DNA from: Odoribacter sp. AF15-53
Lineage (GTDB): Bacteria; Bacteroidota; Bacteroidia; Bacteroidales; Marinifilaceae
Length of the DNA stretch: 64,000 bases
Direction: 5' to 3'
Assembly (NCBI RefSeq): GCF_003479425.1
Contig: NZ_QUHC01000003.1
Location: 310,001 to 374,000, forward strand
Numbering within the stretch: position 1 is the first letter of the stretch; each line of letters opens with the position of its first letter. Below, in pieces: positions 5,514 through 31,267 of the stretch. The notes beneath the pieces are model-generated. The model did no database searches and was not told the origin of the DNA. It saw only the letters and a list, made by a program, of their open reading frames with translations. The position numbers and the translations under genes were made by a program.

Positions 5514-7046
5514 TTAGTAGAAACTAATCTCGGCTATACTTGAAGAGTAGAGATCTCCATAAGGACCGGAATTCACAGCTATTTTTACATACCTGTATTC
5601 TTTGTTTTTCACATCTTGAGTGAAATCGATATAGTTAACTTCACCTTTTGTTTTTCCCAAGGGGTTCTCCTCTAGATATGTGGCGGGTATCCAGCTCATC
5701 AAATCATTAGCAACATAAATCTTAATAACTTCAGGGGCTATGGTTATTTCGTCTGCATTTTCTTGGAATTGTCTTTGAGCGAGACGAAGTCCATTTATGG
5801 TTTTAGACGTTTTTAAATCGAATGTTAGTTCGTAGGTTTTAAAATCTGAAGAGTAGAACGGAATCCAATTGGTAGTATAATTTCCATCAATTAAACGCTC
5901 TACATGTGAAGGAAAATCCTCGTTGTCTTTAGGATACATGCTGATTGTTGTCTCGCTTAAATCAAGCATTGTTTTCGTAGGTTCAGTTGTAGAATTGCCT
6001 TTCTCTTCGATTAGTGCGTTGTCTAAACCTTGAAAGTGTTTGTTATAGCGTTCCACGGTTAAACCATTTAATTCTTTCAATACTTTTAGAGCAAAGTTCG
6101 ATGCTTCTTGTTCCACGATCTTGCTTTGTCCATACGTTGCATCATCTGCAGCATCATTGGAGGTAAAATAACGTTTACTTCCTAGTATGACTCTCTTGAG
6201 ATTAGGGAAGTGTAACAAATCAATAAATGAGTTTGTTGACCAATCCAGATAAATGGTTTCTTGTTGTTCGAGCCAATTATTAGGGATTGCTTCCTCGAAA
6301 CCGAATTGACGTTTTAGTTCTTGCTTAAAATCCGCTTCAAATAATTTATCTGTTGAGAATTCATAAGGTTCAAAATCAATAATATCTTGACAGCCGATTA
6401 ATTCTCCGTTTCGGTGTAATATTAATGGTTTTGAAGGATTGATTTCTTCGGGTAATAAATAAAAGAGTTGGTCAACTAGTTCTTTGTTTAATTCAAGATG
6501 ACCTGTTGAGCCGTCCTTTTTTGTGAATTCCAATGAAGCTGATTTAATTTCATTTTGCCATCCGAGAAAAGTGAGAATTAACCGATTTCGAATAATATAT
6601 ACCTTGGAAATAATCCTGTTGAATGCCATGATGTCTTCGTGAGCGTAGGTATAAGGACGTCCGTAAGTGGTGTTGGGAATAGAAGTCTTACCTTCGGCAT
6701 CCACCGAACACACGGATATTTCGTAATTTCCGTCATTCAAGGTTTCTCCATTCAATTGGTTAATATTATATTGCGTGGTACCTCGTTCTAGTAGCACGGA
6801 GTCCTGGGCTTTATCCAGAATCCATTTGACCTTTACTTTTTGGATACAAGGATCTACATTATTTTCCCAATTCACGATAATTCGTTGCCATCCTGGTGTG
6901 ACTAAAAGATCTGTACATTTTCCTAGGTAACGATTCTCTCCTTTTCCGGCATATTCTTTATAAGTATCTTCCAAACTCTCGTTATCGCATGCTATGCTAA
7001 AAGTCAGCATGCAGAGTAATATTCCGATGTATTTATTTATTCTCAT
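5514..7046 (-). CDS. DUF4998 / discoidin-like surface lipoprotein
   Basis: A 510-residue lipoprotein: the signal sequence ends in FSIACDNE, giving a lipidation cysteine at about residue 20. Residues 25-140 (YKEYAGKGENRYLGKCTDLL, PGWQRIIVNWENN) match the DUF4998 type found beside SusC/SusD pairs. The last 140 residues (about 365-510, with WIPFYSSDF, RLAQRQF and YRYVKIAVNSGPYG) look like an F5/8 type C (discoidin) fold, a usual carbohydrate-binding module. It is the last gene of locus 1, 2 bp after its neighbour, and probably sits on the cell surface to help bind the locus substrate. No catalytic site is seen. Confidence 0.78.
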   Translation of the reverse strand: MRINKYIGILLCMLTFSIACDNESLEDTYKEYAGKGENRYLGKCTDLLVTPGWQRIIVNWENNVDPCIQKVKVKWILDKAQDSVLLERGTTQYNINQLNGETLNDGNYEISVCSVDAEGKTSIPNTTYGRPYTYAHEDIMAFNRIISKVYIIRNRLILTFLGWQNEIKSASLEFTKKDGSTGHLELNKELVDQLFYLLPEEINPSKPLILHRNGELIGCQDIIDFEPYEFSTDKLFEADFKQELKRQFGFEEAIPNNWLEQQETIYLDWSTNSFIDLLHFPNLKRVILGSKRYFTSNDAADDATYGQSKIVEQEASNFALKVLKELNGLTVERYNKHFQGLDNALIEEKGNSTTEPTKTMLDLSETTISMYPKDNEDFPSHVERLIDGNYTTNWIPFYSSDFKTYELTFDLKTSKTINGLRLAQRQFQENADEITIAPEVIKIYVANDLMSWIPATYLEENPLGKTKGEVNYIDFTQDVKNKEYRYVKIAVNSGPYGDLYSSSIAEISFY

Positions 7047-22835: not shown

Positions 22836-24170
22836 TTACTTAAGAATCACATAATCTTCTTCTCTTAAATATTTTTTAGCAAAAAGATTAACCAAACATG
22901 CTGGAACCAGAGTCCATTCTTGCTCTTTCTTTGTTAATAGCCGATGTGTTTCATTTGGAGTATTTTTATAGTTTATCCATTCCGCTTTATCAGGTCCTTC
23001 CGGATGGGCAAGCATTCCGAGAAATGCGGTTTCGGCAAGCATTTTGAGAGTGCGATAGTGATTTATTGGTCCTATCTCAACATGATGTTGCCCGTTTTCT
23101 TCTGAAATGGTTTTATGTTCGCCAATTTCTTCATGCCATGGACGTCTTCCGATAATATCACAGAACTGTTTACCTTCCCCACTGTTCCATTTTCGAATAG
23201 CTTCATCTTTTTCATCCTCGCTAAAGTAAACTGCTTCTGCGTATTTGGTTAATGATATTCCTTCAATAGCAAGTGCCTTCTTGAGCTTTGTACGGGAGAC
23301 ACCTTTGGGACGAAATTCTTCATAAGTACGAGCGAAGGCCTCATACGAGAACTCTGTTATTTTCGCTATCTTTTTGGTCTTCTCTGCTAAAATGTCATAA
23401 ATCCATAAATCATGTCCTTCTTGGAATAAATTGTAATATTCCAACGAATCTTCATTAGAAAATTTGAATCGATAAGCCCAGCTCTTCGTGCTTTTCCCTT
23501 TAGGAATATGTAATGCATATCCTTTTTGGCGTGCGGGTCGCAAAAAAGGTTGAAGTCCTATAGGGGTTATATTTTCTTTCATAAAATCGTCAATTTTTAG
23601 AGGGATTGGTTCGTTTGCCCTCAAAGGACAAAATAGATAAAGTATACCTTCATGTTCTTTACCATCATCAAAAGGTTTATAGCAATCCTCTTCGGGGTCA
23701 TACCAACAAGTAGCAAAGAATAATGCAATATCTATATTACTGGTTAAGTCAAGAACAGGTGTCAATAGCCCATAGTGCTGTGCTAATCCTTCATAATCAA
23801 CCTTGAAATTATGTCGTTTGAAAAATTTGTCCACAATGGGATATGTATCAAGCATATCACGAAATAATGTGAGCTTCATTCTCCATGTGAAAATTTCAGA
23901 GATCGTTAGCGGACGAGGGGTTTCACGATATAAAGATGGATAACATGGCATGTGTTCTTGATTTTGACCTCTAAAAAGGTAAATGACAGTCCCATCCTCT
24001 GGTAAAAGAATTTTTTCGTCCCCATTGCCTGTAAGTATCGCTTCAAAACCAAGTTCATGGTCAAGAGCAATCTGTTGATTGATATCGCTTTGTTCATAAA
24101 ATAGTAGTCTTTCACGGGTGCTTTCCTTGACGAGATGTTTTATTTCTGAGATTGTAAATAATCGAGTCAT
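22836..24170 (-). CDS. FRG domain-containing protein
   Basis: A 444-residue soluble protein. Residues about 65-180 carry the FRG domain: YLFRGQNQEHMPCYPSLYR and the strongly conserved LAQHYGLLTPVLDLTSNIDI followed by ALFFATCWYD. The FRG domain is named for its Phe-Arg-Gly motif; its biochemical role is not established. The rest (about 200-444) shows no domain I recognise. It lies in a gene-poor accessory stretch, 11 bp after a small ORF on the same strand that is probably co-transcribed. FRG genes often occur in variable regions, so a defence or toxin role is possible but is only inference. Confidence 0.85.
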   Translation of the reverse strand: MTRLFTISEIKHLVKESTRERLLFYEQSDINQQIALDHELGFEAILTGNGDEKILLPEDGTVIYLFRGQNQEHMPCYPSLYRETPRPLTISEIFTWRMKLTLFRDMLDTYPIVDKFFKRHNFKVDYEGLAQHYGLLTPVLDLTSNIDIALFFATCWYDPEEDCYKPFDDGKEHEGILYLFCPLRANEPIPLKIDDFMKENITPIGLQPFLRPARQKGYALHIPKGKSTKSWAYRFKFSNEDSLEYYNLFQEGHDLWIYDILAEKTKKIAKITEFSYEAFARTYEEFRPKGVSRTKLKKALAIEGISLTKYAEAVYFSEDEKDEAIRKWNSGEGKQFCDIIGRRPWHEEIGEHKTISEENGQHHVEIGPINHYRTLKMLAETAFLGMLAHPEGPDKAEWINYKNTPNETHRLLTKKEQEWTLVPACLVNLFAKKYLREEDYVILK

Positions 24171-24647: not shown

Positions 24648-24988
24648 GAGCTTGTTTAAATTCTCCTCGCTGAAAAATAATTGACTCGTTATATCCCATT
24701 CCCCGTTGGATTCCAAATCGGATTTATCATGGCAGGCCTTTTATTACATATTCGTGAGTAATCCCTCCGTAGTCTATGGTTGGTCTACCCTTTCCCTTGA
24801 TCAAGAACGTAGCAAGTACACAACACCTACGGAACATACACAGCGACAGGGGTACATGTTCCGTAGGTGTTGTGTTGGGATTCCCTTGGTGTCCTAGTGT
24901 AACGATTGAGAAAGGATTGACAGGGGTGGGCTTATTTCAAAGGATGCTTTATACAAACTCTGGATCGGGATGAAATTTAAACAGGCTC
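24648..24988. mobile_element. MITE-like element or IS remnant, 341 bp, TCA target duplication
   Basis: The left end GAGCTTGTTTAAATT (from 24648) and the right end, read on the other strand as GAGCCTGTTTAAATT (to 24988), differ at one base in 15. Both ends are flanked by TCA (24645-24647 and 24989-24991), a 3-bp duplication of the TNA type seen with some IS5-family elements. No transposase reading frame is present; the short ORFs inside do not look like protein. Inside is a perfect 20-bp inverted repeat (24818-24837 and 24856-24875). It is probably a non-autonomous element moved by a related transposase elsewhere. Confidence 0.7.
24818..24875. repeat. Perfect 20-bp inverted repeat inside the MITE-like element
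   Basis: ACACAACACCTACGGAACAT (24818-24837) and its exact complement (24856-24875) flank an 18-bp spacer. The RNA would form a very stable hairpin in either direction. It may have been a terminator carried by the element. Confidence 0.85.
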
Positions 24989-25073: not shown

Positions 25074-25105
25074 TTTGATTTTTGTAAAAATATATTATAT
25101 ATTTG
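25074..25105 (+). promoter_or_regulatory. Full consensus promoter of the candidate ncRNA
   Basis: TTTG (25074-25077), a 20-bp spacer and TATATTTG (25098-25105) match the Bacteroidetes primary promoter exactly. No protein-coding frame follows on this strand within 600 bp, so it most likely drives the folded RNA that begins near 25110. Confidence 0.75.
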
Positions 25106-25109
25106 CATA

Positions 25110-25304
25110 CGTTGAAAAACGAATTGCGAAAGAGTTCGCATAAAAATATAATGTCATAATCTTGTGATAGAAAACCGCTAATCTTTTTATTCCTACAAGA
25201 TAGACAGTAGTTCAAGCATAAGCGTGGACTGTTGTTTCTATTTGTAGGAAAGGTTCTTAGCGGTACCTCTATCACAGATAGCGATGATAGTTCCACGTTT
25301 TTTT
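25110..25304 (+). ncRNA. Candidate structured non-coding RNA of about 195 nt (6S-like architecture possible)
   Basis: The sequence folds as one long rod. The stems are 25163-25171 with 25268-25276 (9 bp), 25174-25181 with 25257-25264 (8 bp), 25190-25198 with 25242-25250 (9 bp), 25200-25204 with 25237-25241 (5 bp) and 25205-25213 with 25226-25234 (9 bp including three G-U pairs). The G-U pairs work only in the plus-strand RNA, and a full promoter precedes it on that strand. A seven-T run at 25298-25304 follows CCACG, which can pair with the apical loop. The length and rod shape with an internal bubble (25182-25189 / 25251-25256) recall 6S RNA, but I cannot confirm the family. A 5-bp hairpin (GCGAA-AGAG-TTCGC) lies near the 5' end. 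Confidence 0.6.
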
Positions 25305-25351: not shown

Positions 25352-25579
25352 TTATAATGGAATATCAGGAAAGAAATCTTTGATAGAACATTTAAAGATT
25401 TTGGCTAGTTCATTTAAATGGTCTATATTATATGATTTATCAGATTTGGGATTTTCAATCTTTTGTATAAATCCTTGAGAAACATTGAGACAGTCTCCTA
25501 AATAACGCTGACTCCATTCATTATCAAGACGGCGTTTTTTTATATTATCTATAACGTATAATCTAATTTTAGACTTCAT
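25352..25579 (-). CDS. XRE-family helix-turn-helix regulator
   Basis: A 75-residue protein made of one Cro/C1-type HTH: IKKRRLDNEWSQRYLGDCLN, then VSQGFIQKIENPKSDKSYNI, then LNELAKIFKCSIKDFFPDIP. The frame is open upstream to a TTG at 25621, but the ATG at 25579 (MKSKIRLYVID) gives the normal domain start. It lies tail-to-tail with the candidate RNA, whose end is 48 bp away. It may control the neighbouring accessory genes; no partner toxin is evident. Confidence 0.82.
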   Translation of the reverse strand: MKSKIRLYVIDNIKKRRLDNEWSQRYLGDCLNVSQGFIQKIENPKSDKSYNIDHLNELAKIFKCSIKDFFPDIPL

Positions 25580-25735: not shown

Positions 25736-26212
25736 ATGAAAGAAGATCATGAAATTATCAGTGATGAAGAATTGAAAAGATTCTTTTTAAACGAAGCACT
25801 ATTGCTTTGTCCCTCGACACGGGCAGATCTCACGGAGAGTGAAAAGTTATGGATGTTACACGTGCGTTTGAGAAAAATGAACAAACTCACGGGCATGTTG
25901 TGCAATCAAGACCTGGGAGAATACATGCTAGAAATGCAGGAAGTACTGGGATTCTATCTCGTGGAAAAGAACGAATCGAAGAAAAAGAAATTTCGAATGA
26001 ACGAACACTTGAACAGGTTCAATCAATTCGCGATACGATTGACGAGGTTCTCGGACACGCTTGGACACTGTTACCTGTTTTACAATCGCCATTTAAGAAC
26101 ATTGGAACGGGTAATAAAACTTTATTTCCCCGGGGAATTCAAAAAGAAGCAAGAAGAAGAGGTGGCACGGCAAGGAGGAAACACGGGAGAGAAAGAAACC
26201 GGGAACGAGTGA
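25736..26212 (+). CDS. Hypothetical charged protein upstream of uptake locus 2
   Basis: A 158-residue soluble protein I do not recognise. It has no signal peptide or membrane segment, is mainly helical by composition (LWMLHVRLRKMNKL, FNQFAIRLTRFSDTLG) and ends in a very charged tail (KKKQEEEVARQG and beyond). It sits 156 bp after the start of the divergent XRE gene and 204 bp before the susC gene of locus 2. The hairpins at 26295-26394 may end its transcript. It could be a regulator of locus 2, but nothing in the sequence shows that. Confidence 0.6.
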   Translation: MKEDHEIISDEELKRFFLNEALLLCPSTRADLTESEKLWMLHVRLRKMNKLTGMLCNQDLGEYMLEMQEVLGFYLVEKNESKKKKFRMNEHLNRFNQFAIRLTRFSDTLGHCYLFYNRHLRTLERVIKLYFPGEFKKKQEEEVARQGGNTGEKETGNE

Positions 26213-26415: not shown

Positions 26416-29400
26416 ATGAAAAAAATGGATTGTCAGCGCCAATTCATCCTGAATTCGCGTGTAGCTTGTATCATGTTTTTCGCGTTCCTCGTTCACGCTC
26501 CCCAAGGGGTAAAAAGCGAGGCTTTGCAATCGAATCAAGTAAAGCAAGATTCCATCGTGCAACATCTTGTAACAGGGAAGATCAAGGATAAAAAAGGGAT
26601 TCCCCTACCCGGTGTTACCGTTCGCCTGGACAGCACGCTAGCGGGGACATCCTCCGATAATAGTGGACATTACCGGATGTATCTCCCGGTAAATAGAGGA
26701 CGCCTGATTTTCTCTTTTATCGGGTACAAAACAAGAGCCATTTCCTTCACCCAGGTCGATACCCTACTGGATGTAACCCTGGAAGAGAACGTGTCGGAAC
26801 TCGATGAAGTGCAGGTAATCGCTTACGGGGAACAAACACGCCGTAATAGCGTCGGGGCCATGTCCCTCGTGAAAGCCGACGAGATCAAGGATATCCCCTC
26901 CCCCTCCATCAATAACCTCTTGCAAGGCCGGGCCGCGGGGGTGGACGTGACCAACATGACAGGGGCTCCCGGTGGTGGCGGGTCACCAATCGTTATCCGG
27001 GGATACAACTCGCTCGCCGCGGAGAACGGGCGTGTAACATCAGACCCGTTATGGGTCATTGACGGGGTTCCCATGTTCAGTTACACCTCCGGGCTCACCG
27101 GGCTAAACACGATTGCCGAGATTGACACCAAGGACATCGAGTCCATCCAGATATTAAAGGACGCGGCTTCCGCGGCGATCTACGGTTCCCGGGCGGCAAA
27201 CGGGGTGATCATCGTGACCACCAAAAAAGGACACCGGAATCAACCGCCCACGCTAGGGGTGAACATATCCCAGACCTGGGTTACCCGCCCCACCTTACCG
27301 GATCTCACCACGGGAAACGGGGAACGACGCCACAGGATGCAGGCCATGGAAAATTACCGGGAAGCCGTTCACGATGAAGAAACGAACCGGTACCGCCCCG
27401 TTCTATCCTATGAAGACTCGTATAAAAACGGCAAGGATTACAACTTGTTCTGGAATAAAGGCGTGGGACTGGATATCCCGATCGTGCAGGATAGCCTGAA
27501 CAAATTCTACAACAACTCCACGAACCTGTTCGACTATTATTTTCAAACCGGGAAAGTGACCGACGCGAACATCCAGATATCAGGAGGTTCCAGCAACATC
27601 ACGTATCATGTCGGGCTGGGATATTACACCGAGACGGGCGTGTTACGTAACACGGGATTCAACAGGATTAAACTCATAACCAACTTGTTCATCAAACCCT
27701 TCGACAGGGTTGAAAGTAACATCCGCTTCTACCTTGCCCGTACCGGACGGAACCGGGCGGGCAAGGGACATGATGCCCACACGTTCATCAACGTTAGAAA
27801 TGACCTGGAGACCATCCCGGACGAGTTGCTCTCGACCTCTACCCTGATGCCCGGGCCGGGAACGGCGGCTTTTGATGAATCCGTCCGGCGTTTCAACGAG
27901 ATAAAGGAGAAAAACGAGTCGTACAGGCTGAGAGCATCGTTTGACCTGGCCTACACGATCACGGACGGGCTTAAATTGAAATCGTCTCTAGCGGTCGATT
28001 TCTCCATGCAAGACCAAAATATATTCATGCCCCCCGCCCTGAACGTTGACAACAAAAGTTACTCGTCGGGGAATGACGAGATCAACATGATGTGGCTAAA
28101 TGAAAACCTGCTCTCGTGCAACAAGACCCTCGCGGACGGTCACACTCTTGACGTGCTTCTCGGCCTCTCCTTCCAGGGAGACATCGCCAAAAGCAAGGGC
28201 GGGTACGGCAAGGGGGCACCGAGTGATTTGATCCGGTACGTCACGTGGAGCGGCAGCGCGTATGACACGGAGAAAAAACAACAGCTAAAGGAATACACGT
28301 CCTCCCTCGAAAGAAGCACGATGGTCGGGATGTTTGGCCGTGTATCGTACAACTACAAGCAGAAGTATTTCGCGTCCGTCACGCTTCGAAGGGATGCCAG
28401 CTCAAAGTTCGGGGAAAACACCCGCTGGGGGACTTTCCCGTCATACGCTATCGCTTACACGTTTAGCGAGGAACCGTACATGGATTGGGCCCGTGATTTC
28501 ATGGATCACGGGAAAATCCGCCTCAGTTACGGGAAATCCGGGAAACAGTTCGAACACCCGTACCTCGCCTTCGGGGTATTAGCCCCCGGCACCATCCCTT
28601 TCCACGGGAATCAAACGATATCCCCTTTCTGGAATGACGGCCTGTTAAACCCGAAATTAAGCTGGGAAGAAACCCGCCAGTTTGACGCGGGGCTGGACCT
28701 CGATTTCTTCAACAACAGGCTGGGGGTCGTGCTTGATTACTACTACCGGTACACCGATAAACTATTGACGCTCGTTAGCTTGCCGGGAGATTACAACGCG
28801 TACGTCGCGCAATGGCAAAACGCTTACGCGATCTCGAATCAAGGGCTTGAACTACAAATCAAGGCGGATTTAATTCAATCTGAAAAACTGCACTGGGATA
28901 TCAATTTCAATATCGCCCGCAACTGGAACAGGCTTGAAAAAAGTAACAACGGGATGGATTTCGTGAACCGGGTAAGCGCTCATAACCTGAATATCATCGG
29001 GAAACCCCTGAACGGTATTTACGTCTATAACGATCAAGGCTACTACAACTCGCGAGACGAGATCCCGTCCTATTATATAGATGGCAAACAAAGGTATCTA
29101 TCCCCCCCGGGAAACCAGATTTACACGCCCGGGGACCGGAGGATACAAGATGTAGACGGGAATGGCCGGATCGCGACCAGCGTGCCGCTTCTAGAAGACC
29201 GTGTATACGGGGGATCTCCCCTCCCGCTCGCTTTCGGCGGGATCGCGACTTCTCTTGAATGGAAGAACCTCGATTTAAACCTGCTCTTCTCGTACAAGCT
29301 GGGAAGACACGTTTTAAACGCGGGAAGAGGCGCTTCGGTGGGCACCACGTTAAAAGCTAACACGAGTGAAATGATGACCCCGATACTGGCCGATCTTGAC

Positions 29401-29736
29401 AAGATTTCCTTCTGGCAGAAACCGGGAGACGATACCGATTTCCCGGTCAACGAGCTGGATAACGGAAAGAATAATTTCGCCACGAATTTGAAAAGCAACA
29501 TTGAAAAAATCAACTACTTGAAACTGAAAAGTATCTCTATAGGCTACACGCTACCCGTGTTCCCGAAACAATCGAAACATCACGCCCGTGTATTCATGTC
29601 CGTCGAGAACGTGTTTACCATCACCAATTCCTCAAGTCCCGATCCGGAATCAATAGACATCGTGACCGGGATTGACTCGAACAATAATTACCCGCTGGCA
29701 ACAAGATTCACGCTAGGGTTAACTTTAAATTTATAA
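26416..29736 (+). CDS. SusC/RagA-family TonB-linked outer membrane transporter, no STN (locus 2)
   Basis: A 1106-residue TonB-dependent transporter. After a signal segment (about 1-36) a CarboxypepD_reg-like domain begins directly (VTGKIKDKKGIPLPGVTVRL near 55), then the plug with GRAAGVDVTNMTGAPGGGGS and LKDAASAAIYGSRAANGVII near 250, then the barrel. No STN domain is present, and no sigma/FecR genes are linked, unlike the other three loci. Codon use is markedly GC-rich (many ACC, GGG, CCC, CGG), unlike the AT-leaning genes on both sides, which suggests acquisition from another genome. The susD gene follows after 4 bp. Confidence 0.95.
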   Translation: MKKMDCQRQFILNSRVACIMFFAFLVHAPQGVKSEALQSNQVKQDSIVQHLVTGKIKDKKGIPLPGVTVRLDSTLAGTSSDNSGHYRMYLPVNRGRLIFSFIGYKTRAISFTQVDTLLDVTLEENVSELDEVQVIAYGEQTRRNSVGAMSLVKADEIKDIPSPSINNLLQGRAAGVDVTNMTGAPGGGGSPIVIRGYNSLAAENGRVTSDPLWVIDGVPMFSYTSGLTGLNTIAEIDTKDIESIQILKDAASAAIYGSRAANGVIIVTTKKGHRNQPPTLGVNISQTWVTRPTLPDLTTGNGERRHRMQAMENYREAVHDEETNRYRPVLSYEDSYKNGKDYNLFWNKGVGLDIPIVQDSLNKFYNNSTNLFDYYFQTGKVTDANIQISGGSSNITYHVGLGYYTETGVLRNTGFNRIKLITNLFIKPFDRVESNIRFYLARTGRNRAGKGHDAHTFINVRNDLETIPDELLSTSTLMPGPGTAAFDESVRRFNEIKEKNESYRLRASFDLAYTITDGLKLKSSLAVDFSMQDQNIFMPPALNVDNKSYSSGNDEINMMWLNENLLSCNKTLADGHTLDVLLGLSFQGDIAKSKGGYGKGAPSDLIRYVTWSGSAYDTEKKQQLKEYTSSLERSTMVGMFGRVSYNYKQKYFASVTLRRDASSKFGENTRWGTFPSYAIAYTFSEEPYMDWARDFMDHGKIRLSYGKSGKQFEHPYLAFGVLAPGTIPFHGNQTISPFWNDGLLNPKLSWEETRQFDAGLDLDFFNNRLGVVLDYYYRYTDKLLTLVSLPGDYNAYVAQWQNAYAISNQGLELQIKADLIQSEKLHWDINFNIARNWNRLEKSNNGMDFVNRVSAHNLNIIGKPLNGIYVYNDQGYYNSRDEIPSYYIDGKQRYLSPPGNQIYTPGDRRIQDVDGNGRIATSVPLLEDRVYGGSPLPLAFGGIATSLEWKNLDLNLLFSYKLGRHVLNAGRGASVGTTLKANTSEMMTPILADLDKISFWQKPGDDTDFPVNELDNGKNNFATNLKSNIEKINYLKLKSISIGYTLPVFPKQSKHHARVFMSVENVFTITNSSSPDPESIDIVTGIDSNNNYPLATRFTLGLTLNL

Positions 29737-29740
29737 TCAC

Positions 29741-31267
29741 ATGAAAAAACTGCTATACATCATATTGCTGTTGTTCCCGCTGGCAAGTTGCGATGACTTG
29801 TTCAAGGACTTCTTGACCGAGGAACCCGAAACACTCGTCACGAACACGAACTTCTGGAAAACGGAAAAAGACGTTGAATCCGCCATGAACGAGCTTCATT
29901 CCATGTTCAGGGAATGGGCCGGAAGTGTCACCGTGCGGCTTTACCGGGACCGGGGACTTCAATTCGATTACCTGGGATTAACCTGGAGAAATATCTCGGA
30001 CAACGAACTGCAGAAAGACATGAATATAAATTCTCTCACCCTCAACTGGCTCGACGAGTACCGGACGATCGGGTTGTGCAATTTCATTTTAGGCAATATT
30101 CACCGGGCGAAAATACCCGGGGAACGGGCGAATTATTACAAGGGACAAGCCCTGACACTCCGGGCTTACGTGTACTTTTACATCTCACGCACGTGGGGCG
30201 ATGCCGTGCTGATCACGTCCGAGGGGGATGTCGGCGAGAAAGCCGTGACCCCGTGGCGGGATATCATGAAAGTCGTGATTGATGACCTCCTTGAAGCCAC
30301 GAGATTATTACCCCCGGTGAATGAAATGAAAGATGCCAACGGGGCAACGGTTACAAGCAAACAAATACCTTCAAGGGGTACCGCTTACGCCATCCTCGCT
30401 CACGCTTACGCCTGGTTGGCGGGATACGGGGAAGAGCCGGAATATTACCAAAAAGGTATCGACGCCGCTACCGAGGTCATCCGATCCAGTGACTATTCTC
30501 TAGTTAGTGATCCCCGGGAGGTCTGCGAGATCGTGTTACCCGGGAACAGCCGGGAAGGCATTTTTGAAATAGACTTCGTGGACCCGGAAGCGTTCAACAG
30601 GTCCGGGAATAGCCTGGCCGGGGGTACCCAGAAATGGCCCCCGGACCCGACCGCGGGACACTCGACAAGGAGAACATTACTCCGTTTAAACAACGAGAGT
30701 GTCATGGCCATGTACCCGGATGTACACGACAAGAGACGGGAAGAATACTTCTACAAACTTGACTCCATGGCACAAGTGAAGACCTCGACCACGCAAGGGG
30801 CCGCGTATATCTACAAGTTCAGGAAACCGCTCCTTCACGAGAGTGGTAGCCAGATAGGCAAACTCCGGGGATATGACTTGAACGAGATACTCATCCGTCT
30901 CGCGGATATATACCTGCTCCGGGCCGAAATGCGGGCGAAATCCAATGATGTACCGGGAGCCATAACCGATTTAAACGTGATCAGGAAACGAGCCGGGGCA
31001 AGGGAATACACCCCGGACGAGAACCTGGAAGAGGCCATCGCCCAAGAGAGGGACAAGGAGTTATTCCTCGAAGGTATATGCACGAGATACTTTGACATTA
31101 TCCGTAACAGGACTTTCCGTGAAAAACTCAGGGGTAAGTTCAAAACTCTCTCCGATCAGGACGTGAAGGACGGGGCGTTATTCTTCCCGGTCTCTTTTTA
31201 CGCGTTCCAGAACAACACTAAAATGACACAGAATATTTACTGGAAAAGAAATGGATTTTCAATTTAA
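29741..31267 (+). CDS. SusD/RagB-family outer membrane lipoprotein (locus 2)
   Basis: A 508-residue lipoprotein, signal LLFPLASCDDLF with the cysteine near residue 17. SusD features include ALTLRAYVYFYISRTWGDAV near 135, EILIRLADIYLLRAEMRAKS near 385 and the C-terminal RDKELFLEGICTRYFDIIRN near 438. It pairs with the SusC encoded 4 bp upstream. It has the same GC-rich codon use. The ligand is unknown; the fasciclin partner downstream does not identify it. Confidence 0.95.
   Translation: MKKLLYIILLLFPLASCDDLFKDFLTEEPETLVTNTNFWKTEKDVESAMNELHSMFREWAGSVTVRLYRDRGLQFDYLGLTWRNISDNELQKDMNINSLTLNWLDEYRTIGLCNFILGNIHRAKIPGERANYYKGQALTLRAYVYFYISRTWGDAVLITSEGDVGEKAVTPWRDIMKVVIDDLLEATRLLPPVNEMKDANGATVTSKQIPSRGTAYAILAHAYAWLAGYGEEPEYYQKGIDAATEVIRSSDYSLVSDPREVCEIVLPGNSREGIFEIDFVDPEAFNRSGNSLAGGTQKWPPDPTAGHSTRRTLLRLNNESVMAMYPDVHDKRREEYFYKLDSMAQVKTSTTQGAAYIYKFRKPLLHESGSQIGKLRGYDLNEILIRLADIYLLRAEMRAKSNDVPGAITDLNVIRKRAGAREYTPDENLEEAIAQERDKELFLEGICTRYFDIIRNRTFREKLRGKFKTLSDQDVKDGALFFPVSFYAFQNNTKMTQNIYWKRNGFSI

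Follow-up and report, generated by a model that had tools for sequence, protein, structure and literature searches.

A multicopy RNA family of Bacteroidota with two competing folds: candidate conditional terminators upstream of genes

The window, a stretch of 64,000 nt from a contig of Odoribacter sp. AF15-53, contains an intergenic region in which a promoter is followed by a sequence predicted to fold into one long rod and by a T-run. Behind it lie a small convergent XRE gene and, on the strand of the RNA, orf158 and a SusC–SusD pair (Table 1). A gene for an FRG-domain protein (22836–24170) adjoins the element. Upstream of the RNA promoter, in the same intergenic region and outside the family fold, there is a perfect 20 bp inverted repeat (24818–24837 and 24856–24875; predicted hairpin −35 kcal/mol), located by script and absent from the output of a repeat-finding tool.

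Table 1. Coordinates of the RNA element and of the genes behind it, in window positions
Feature	Position	Strand	Remarks
Promoter	25074–25105	+	−33 TTTG at 25074–25077; −7 TATATTTG at 25098–25105
5′ hairpin P1, AGAG loop	25125–25140	+	Predicted in the fold of the window RNA; family-wide signal not strong
Segment a (strand 1)	25152–25164	+	Partner of b in the two-hairpin fold; weak pairing with d in the rod
P4 5′ strand, TGTGATAG	25163–25170	+	Hypervariable helix
P5 5′ strand, ACCGCTAA	25174–25181	+	Most constant helix; possible kissing loop
P6 5′ strand	25190–25198	+	Hypervariable helix
Segment b (strand 2)	25199–25217	+	Own-versus-cross duplex test
Segment c (strand 3)	25222–25241	+	Holds five of the eight bases of TCTATTTG
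P6 3′ strand	25242–25250	+	Fold and family alignment
P5 3′ strand, TTAGCGGT	25257–25264	+	Flanked by GGT (25252–25254) and ACC (25265–25267)
P4 3′ strand, CTATCACA	25269–25276	+	Fold and family alignment
Segment d (strand 4)	25276–25297	+	3′ arm of the predicted terminator; c–d duplex test
T-run, predicted termination point	25298–25304	+	Abutted by the c–d stem, window copy included
Small XRE gene (Pfam HTH_26/HTH_3)	25352–25579	−	Convergent with the RNA; gene end 48 nt from the T-run
orf158	25736–26212	+	No Pfam family; homologues at the same place in loci L032 and L085
SusC-like TonB-dependent receptor	26416–29736	+	Follows orf158
SusD-like protein	29741–31267	+	Follows SusC

The Bacteroidetes −33/−7 promoter has the consensus TTTG and TAnnTTTG, which the TTTG and TATATTTG of the window copy fit. 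The first 68–72 nt from 25074 are 91 % identical to G002 and 85 % to G003 (Butyricimonas sp. Marseille-P3923). The RNA at 25110–25304 has a minimum free energy of −63.2 kcal/mol, compared with a mean of −36.6 kcal/mol for shuffled sequences (z −7.4), and none of 200 shuffles folded as well. Seven of the 69 pairs in this structure are G-U, including three in the apical stem (25207:25232, 25208:25231 and 25212:25227), and the minus strand folds less stably, at −57.4 kcal/mol. A sequence-only reading of the locus had described a consensus promoter, a 195 nt rod ending in a T-run and three apical G-U pairs that favour the plus strand; the promoter, rod and T-run were found at the places it gave, and the three G-U pairs are present.

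The length of about 190 nt and the rod shape resemble 6S RNA (RF01685, 6S-Flavo; RF01693, Bacteroidales-1), and the sequence-only reading accordingly suggested a 6S RNA with TCTATTTG at 25237–25244 on the 3′ side of the rod as a −7-like promoter mimic. The motif exists, but it reads TCnnTTTG rather than TAnnTTTG and spans the conserved c and P6 3′ arms. None of the 4227 models of Rfam 15 reached its gathering cut-off in the window, and at E values up to 10 no 6S family appeared in the region; what did match there fell far short of its cut-off, for example MIR1515 with 20 of 140 bits. At 33 further loci with the element (13 + 20), a search at E ≤ 1 returned nothing at the element. In contrast, seven of eight related genomes have 6S-Flavo matches at E ≤ 0.001 (37–42 bits, cut-off 85) that sit away from the matches to the present family, and the four such loci that were re-scanned all match both 6S-Flavo (40–42 bits) and Bacteroidales-1 (38–46 bits, cut-off 60). 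Given the lack of a model match, the 6S candidates elsewhere in seven of eight relatives and the many copies per genome, 6S identity was rejected for the window RNA; a 6S or 6S-like RNA polymerase decoy is extremely unlikely. The 6S candidates of Odoribacteraceae at L036–L039 score well under both Rfam 6S cut-offs, and 6S RNAs of this group seem to escape the Rfam models.

Searches of the main texts of open-access papers in PMC found no description of the RNA family. Palindromic Bacteroidetes candidates of 80–132 bp (HMP2_4205, HMP2_1065 and HMP2_1032) are called terminators in PMC8040213. These are likewise palindromic and terminator-like, one lies near TonB, and a partial earlier sighting of the family among them is possible; they are set apart here by length and description, not by sequence. 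DonS-type RNAs of Bacteroides polysaccharide utilization loci (PUL; PMC7366714) are also linked to SusC genes in Bacteroidales. Their orientation is antisense to susC, while members of the present family are found upstream in the sense orientation, with a predicted terminator switch.

A DNA search of eight relatives gave matches in four genomes, weak in one of them (G004), and identified L031, L032 and L033 as homologous RNAs. Within the GTDB family of Butyricimonas sp. Marseille-P3923, DNA matches occur in 11 of 56 genomes. A covariance model, R1, was built from 10 copies and used for all surveys, with E-values that are rough. It matched 34 of the same 56 genomes (E ≤ 0.1), at least 148 of 393 genomes of the order (E ≤ 0.001; a floor, because seven candidates were scored per genome) and 34 of 395 genomes of a phylum sample that overlaps partly with that of the order (E ≤ 1e-4). 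With 150 candidates scored per genome at E ≤ 0.01, 36 copies were counted in O. lunatus DSM 112344, 16 in B. synergistica, 9 in O. laneus, 8 in Butyricimonas sp. Marseille-P3923 and none in Marinifilum flexuosum. By sequence and fold, then, the window RNA belongs to a large, multicopy Bacteroidota family absent from Rfam 15. The description of the RNA as an ‘orphan’ does not hold for an element with many paralogues, whereas that of an RNA outside the known families next to an XRE gene does: it has no Rfam family, and the XRE neighbour recurs at other loci. Few RNA regulators are known from the phylum Bacteroidota; with this spread and up to 36 copies per genome, the family would rank among the commoner ones.

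The mutase gene flanking the window element is 97 % identical to that of B. synergistica DSM 23225; 30 loci reached through this gene contain no copy of the RNA by BLASTn. The plasmids searched gave no match to the RNA. Among phages the sole match is record MT837835.1 from human faeces (5525–5754, 71 % identity), and one contig classed as viral carries a copy (L166, 11014–11192), the only viral contig with the exact P5 pattern, a narrow query. Tandem copies on the same strand, a few hundred nt apart, occur at L064 and L068, with paired matches in genomes G001, G003, G007 and G008.

Aligning 59 sequences to R1, in an alignment fitted to the rod, gave standard pairing in 91.8 % of cells at the rod’s 34 pairs, falling to 36–45 % once one partner was slid by 1–3 columns. 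Changes on both sides were found at 32 of the 34 pairs. P5 is paired in 99.1 % of cells, while P4 shows nearly every type of pair and P6 most of them. Among all 104 members (these 59 and a further 45), the full-length fold shows P5 in 98, and the plus strand is the more stable in 101. The P1 hairpin at the 5′ end carries a moderate signal across the family (mean z −1.1; 39 of 104 below −1.5), AGAG being the commonest loop in its region (15 loops, 104 members).

Read side by side, the copies show complementarity not only between segments b and c but also between a and b and between c and d. These pairings were assessed by an alignment-free comparison of duplex energies within a copy to those of segments taken from different copies (5000 permutations). 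This own-versus-cross test was preferred because a–b and c–d are out of register in the rod-fitted alignment A6, on which their columnwise covariation is weak and a few control columns score equally high. In the first set (38 non-redundant of the 59 sequences) z was −10.2 for a–b, −13.3 for c–d, −10.9 for b–c, −3.5 for a–d and −5.9 for d–e, with −19.5, −11.6 and −12.6 for P4, P5 and P6. The second set (22 non-redundant of 45) consists of copies found with R1, one of them via the P5 pattern, none of which was used in building the model; here z was −8.1 for a–b, −9.3 for c–d, −8.8 for b–c, −3.3 for a–d and −3.0 for d–e. Permuting the second set within similarity clusters left values of −5.8 (a–b), −6.4 (c–d) and −2.5 (d–e). 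Control pairs (a–c, b–d, a–e, c–e, b–e and up–d, with up–e in the first set alone) ranged from −1.6 to +1.9 over both sets: −1.0 to +1.9 in the first, and −1.6 to +1.4 in the second over both permutation schemes. The a–b/c–d fold was not part of the search model. Selection on RNA structure, which the sequence-only reading had proposed from the G-U pairs, is thus supported both by compensatory changes at the rod pairs among homologous copies and by the duplex tests.

The competing fold also holds in individual copies. When the halves are folded separately, six or more a–b pairs form in the 5′ half of 102 of the 104 copies and eight or more c–d pairs in the 3′ half of 99. In 93 copies (53 of 59 and 40 of 45), a T-rich stretch with at least 5 T among 9 nt adjoins the end of the c–d stem; the 11 others include L031, in which the 3′ terminator half is lost. 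The window copy keeps the competing fold, both as a c–d duplex and in its half-folds. On average the rod is more stable than the two hairpins by about 14.6 kcal/mol, with the hairpins coming within 5 kcal/mol of it in 4 of 59 copies. The flanks of each P5 strand are themselves complementary (GGU:ACC or GGC:GCC; AAA:UUU), with own-versus-cross z of 5.4 and 6.4 among 59 non-redundant copies of the 104; each P5 strand can therefore be presented in the loop of a hairpin, and P5 could survive as a contact between two loops.

Many copies lie shortly ahead of a gene. In 61 of the 89 copies counted, an ATG ORF with 60 codons or more begins on the same strand no farther than 110 nt from the model end, compared with 23 % for random positions in the same loci; in 43 of the 89 it begins at 40–65 nt (random 5 %). 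The 89 exclude near-duplicates (such as L041, L073 and L092), L050 and L056, and eight copies from O. lunatus in which little sequence remains on the contig behind the RNA (L105, L108, L112, L114, L115, L116, L118 and L120). Nineteen copies from the phylum-wide set and the viral contig were counted apart; ORF starts within 110 nt in 7 and at 40–65 nt in 3 of them indicate looser placement there. Upstream, TAnnTTTG occurs 25–110 nt before the model start in 83 of 104 members, compared with 6 % of random stretches. The proposal that the promoter ‘drives no protein’ needs qualification: behind the window copy the next same-strand ORF starts at 431 nt, but the 61 copies above have one within 110 nt.

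The dispersed, multicopy occurrence and the long inverted-repeat fold raise the question of whether the family consists of palindromic mobile DNA elements of the MITE or REP kind and folds only as a consequence of its inverted repeats. Close double copies, copies near contig ends, a transposase with integrase core adjoining L040 and the loose ORF placement in the phylum-wide set would all agree with such an origin. A by-product of DNA repeats would not, however, be expected to have a more stable plus strand in nearly all members, a one-sided promoter motif, constrained orientation and start-codon spacing in 61 of 89 copies, changes on both sides of almost every rod pair, or the arrangement of a–b, c–d and T-run, and we consider this explanation very unlikely.

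By a simple rule, 39 of 60 distinct downstream proteins look exported; among other ORFs of 150 codons or more at these loci, the rule picks out 18 of 80. Ten of the 39 belong to one O. lunatus paralogue family, so that 29 of the remaining 50 is the fairer figure. Many copies precede genes for surface receptors, lipoproteins and further exported proteins, which influence how gut bacteria encounter host and food. Fifty-two downstream proteins (50 of the 60 and two farther SusC-type genes) match 47 Pfam families; the 25 that were listed include LRR/BspA, BACON, TonB receptor plug, FGE-sulfatase, TerB, HATPase and radical SAM, and among these 25 no common pathway names a ligand. This bears on whether the RNA is a metabolite riboswitch, in which one small molecule would bind the conserved P5 region and select the rod or the terminator. 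P5 is indeed bordered by conserved unpaired sequence, AAA ahead of its 5′ strand and ACC behind its 3′ strand, next to a conserved expression platform. The diversity of the downstream genes, a copy number of up to 36 per genome, unusual for a riboswitch, and the absence of any Rfam riboswitch match at the element nevertheless make one ligand for the whole family a quite improbable explanation.

The window copy itself belongs, judged by its gene neighbourhood, to a subclass that has a convergent XRE gene; this copy lies upstream of orf158, SusC and SusD. An XRE profile made from six proteins gave 48 matches in 15 of the 56 family genomes, and 10 of 30 fetched XRE loci have an RNA convergent with the XRE gene at 9–102 nt; since five of the ten are the profile’s own members, 5 of 25 others is the fairer figure. 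Among other loci, L172 shares one of these RNAs at a greater distance, the arrangement differs in L187, and in L175 the match is weak. The orf158 product is 46 % identical to its homologue in L032 and 34 % to that in L085. Directly upstream of the XRE-linked copy at L040, positions 32–1245 hold a transposase whose domain is an integrase core (rve), together with an ORF ahead of it; by eye, the pair resembles IS3.

Many leader-type copies carry a further segment, e, which follows the T-run, lies right before the start codon and is complementary to d. The d–e pairing is predicted at −8.0 kcal/mol in the window copy compared with −13.6 in L103 and −16.4 in L083; the XRE-convergent copies range from −4.9 to −9.0 kcal/mol in the window, L032, L033, L040 and L043, with −12.5 in L096. 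At least in the XRE-linked subclass, the RNA might be a stand-alone small RNA of about 195 nt, constitutively terminated and acting in trans or by binding a protein. Its own promoter and T-run, the lack of an ORF close behind the window copy and a d–e pairing weaker in five of the six XRE-convergent copies checked than in L083 and L103 all agree with this. The subclass nonetheless keeps the same competing folds, and orf158 and SusC lie downstream of the window copy on the same strand, with orf158 homologues in L032 and L085; a stand-alone RNA is thus unlikely on balance, though it retains appreciable weight.

We favour, with a probability of about 0.62, a dispersed family of cis-acting leaders that work as conditional transcription terminators, or attenuators. 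This rests on features read from the sequences, namely a recognizable family, two folds that each co-vary, the position of the T-run, the promoter and, for 61 of 89 copies, the placement before genes. Transcription would start some 40–55 nt before the rod, as placed from the −7 motif, and hairpin I (a–b) could form in the 5′ half once made. In one state, c and d would pair into hairpin II, whose long stem reaches up to the T-run, and RNA synthesis would end at 25304. In the other, the 3′ half would pair with the 5′ half through P5, P6, P4 and b–c to give one long rod; the rod would take c away from the terminator, so that RNA polymerase would read on. P5 can pair in both states because mini-hairpins can hold its strands in their loops, and a loop–loop contact at P5 may start the switch. 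In the read-through RNA of many leader-type copies, segment e could pair with d. The terminator pairings 1:2 and 3:4 would thus compete with the antiterminator, 2:3 and the long rod, the two being mutually exclusive to judge from their geometry. Both the switching and the direction of regulation are what we infer from this two-state fold, which gives a direct and testable mechanism.

Several observations weigh on the attenuator reading. The rod being the more stable fold by about 14.6 kcal/mol, termination would need kinetic trapping or a factor. The c–d hairpin has a loop of about 30 nt plus a short linker, and such a loop is long for an intrinsic terminator. Pairing of a with d is weak, and 28 of 89 copies, the window copy included, lack an ORF start on their strand in the next 110 nt; the looser placement in the phylum-wide set slightly lowers confidence in the leader role. 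For the window copy, the probable target is the orf158–SusC–SusD set, which probably forms one regulated operon; it lies at least 431 nt away with the XRE gene antisense in between, and any read-through transcript would at the same time run antisense to XRE.

In trp- and his-type attenuators, 1:2 and 3:4 pairings alternate with 2:3. The present RNAs have the same four ordered segments with exclusive pairings, a 3:4 stem followed by a T-run and, often, a position right before a gene. They differ in that no leader peptide was seen (by eye, in the window copy, where an ATG in the 5′ half reads ATG TCA TAA), in that a rod of P4, P5 and P6 would lock 2:3, and in that paralogues precede unrelated genes. 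Riboswitches that overlap terminators and T-box leaders are likewise leader RNAs in which a terminator competes with another fold, but the present family has no known aptamer, no Rfam match and no shared pathway among the downstream genes listed. We read the rod as an unusually elaborate antiterminator within attenuator logic.

Two helices of the rod, P4 and P6, vary greatly among paralogues. Compared pairwise, 19 of the 36 copies in O. lunatus share 86 % identity along the backbone, which runs from promoter to e, whereas the P4 strands are 41 % and the P6 strands 37–48 % identical; fourfold-degenerate sites of 10 downstream O. lunatus ORFs are 66 % identical. P4 and P6 nevertheless stay complementary. 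Leaders with the same neighbours in two genomes, L084 (G015) and L097 (G014), also differ in P4 and P6. The combination of P4, part of P5 and P6 is different in each of the 19 copies, while single modules recur (16 distinct P4 and 13 distinct P6), and the modules look reassorted among the copies. This could reflect relaxed constraint together with gene conversion, or selection for distinct self-recognition; that hypervariable helices remain paired raises a new question, of specificity between paralogous RNAs. A cis guide role found no pairing signal between the P4–P5–P6 half and the 260 nt downstream (z +1.2).

A rather speculative extension, to which we give a small probability, is a phylum-wide network of addressable RNA switches in Bacteroidota. 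Dozens of paralogous leaders in each cell would share a backbone and carry different self-complementary barcodes in P4, P5 and P6, the halves of each leader recognizing none but their own partner or a matching RNA in trans, with the conserved P5 loops nucleating the choice between terminator and rod. Surface-protein genes would then be separately addressable and possibly bistable. Several of the copies fetched from O. lunatus (G007, L103–L121) lie at contig ends; the complete ones mostly precede a single paralogous family of large exported proteins, with an FGE-sulfatase domain in L106.
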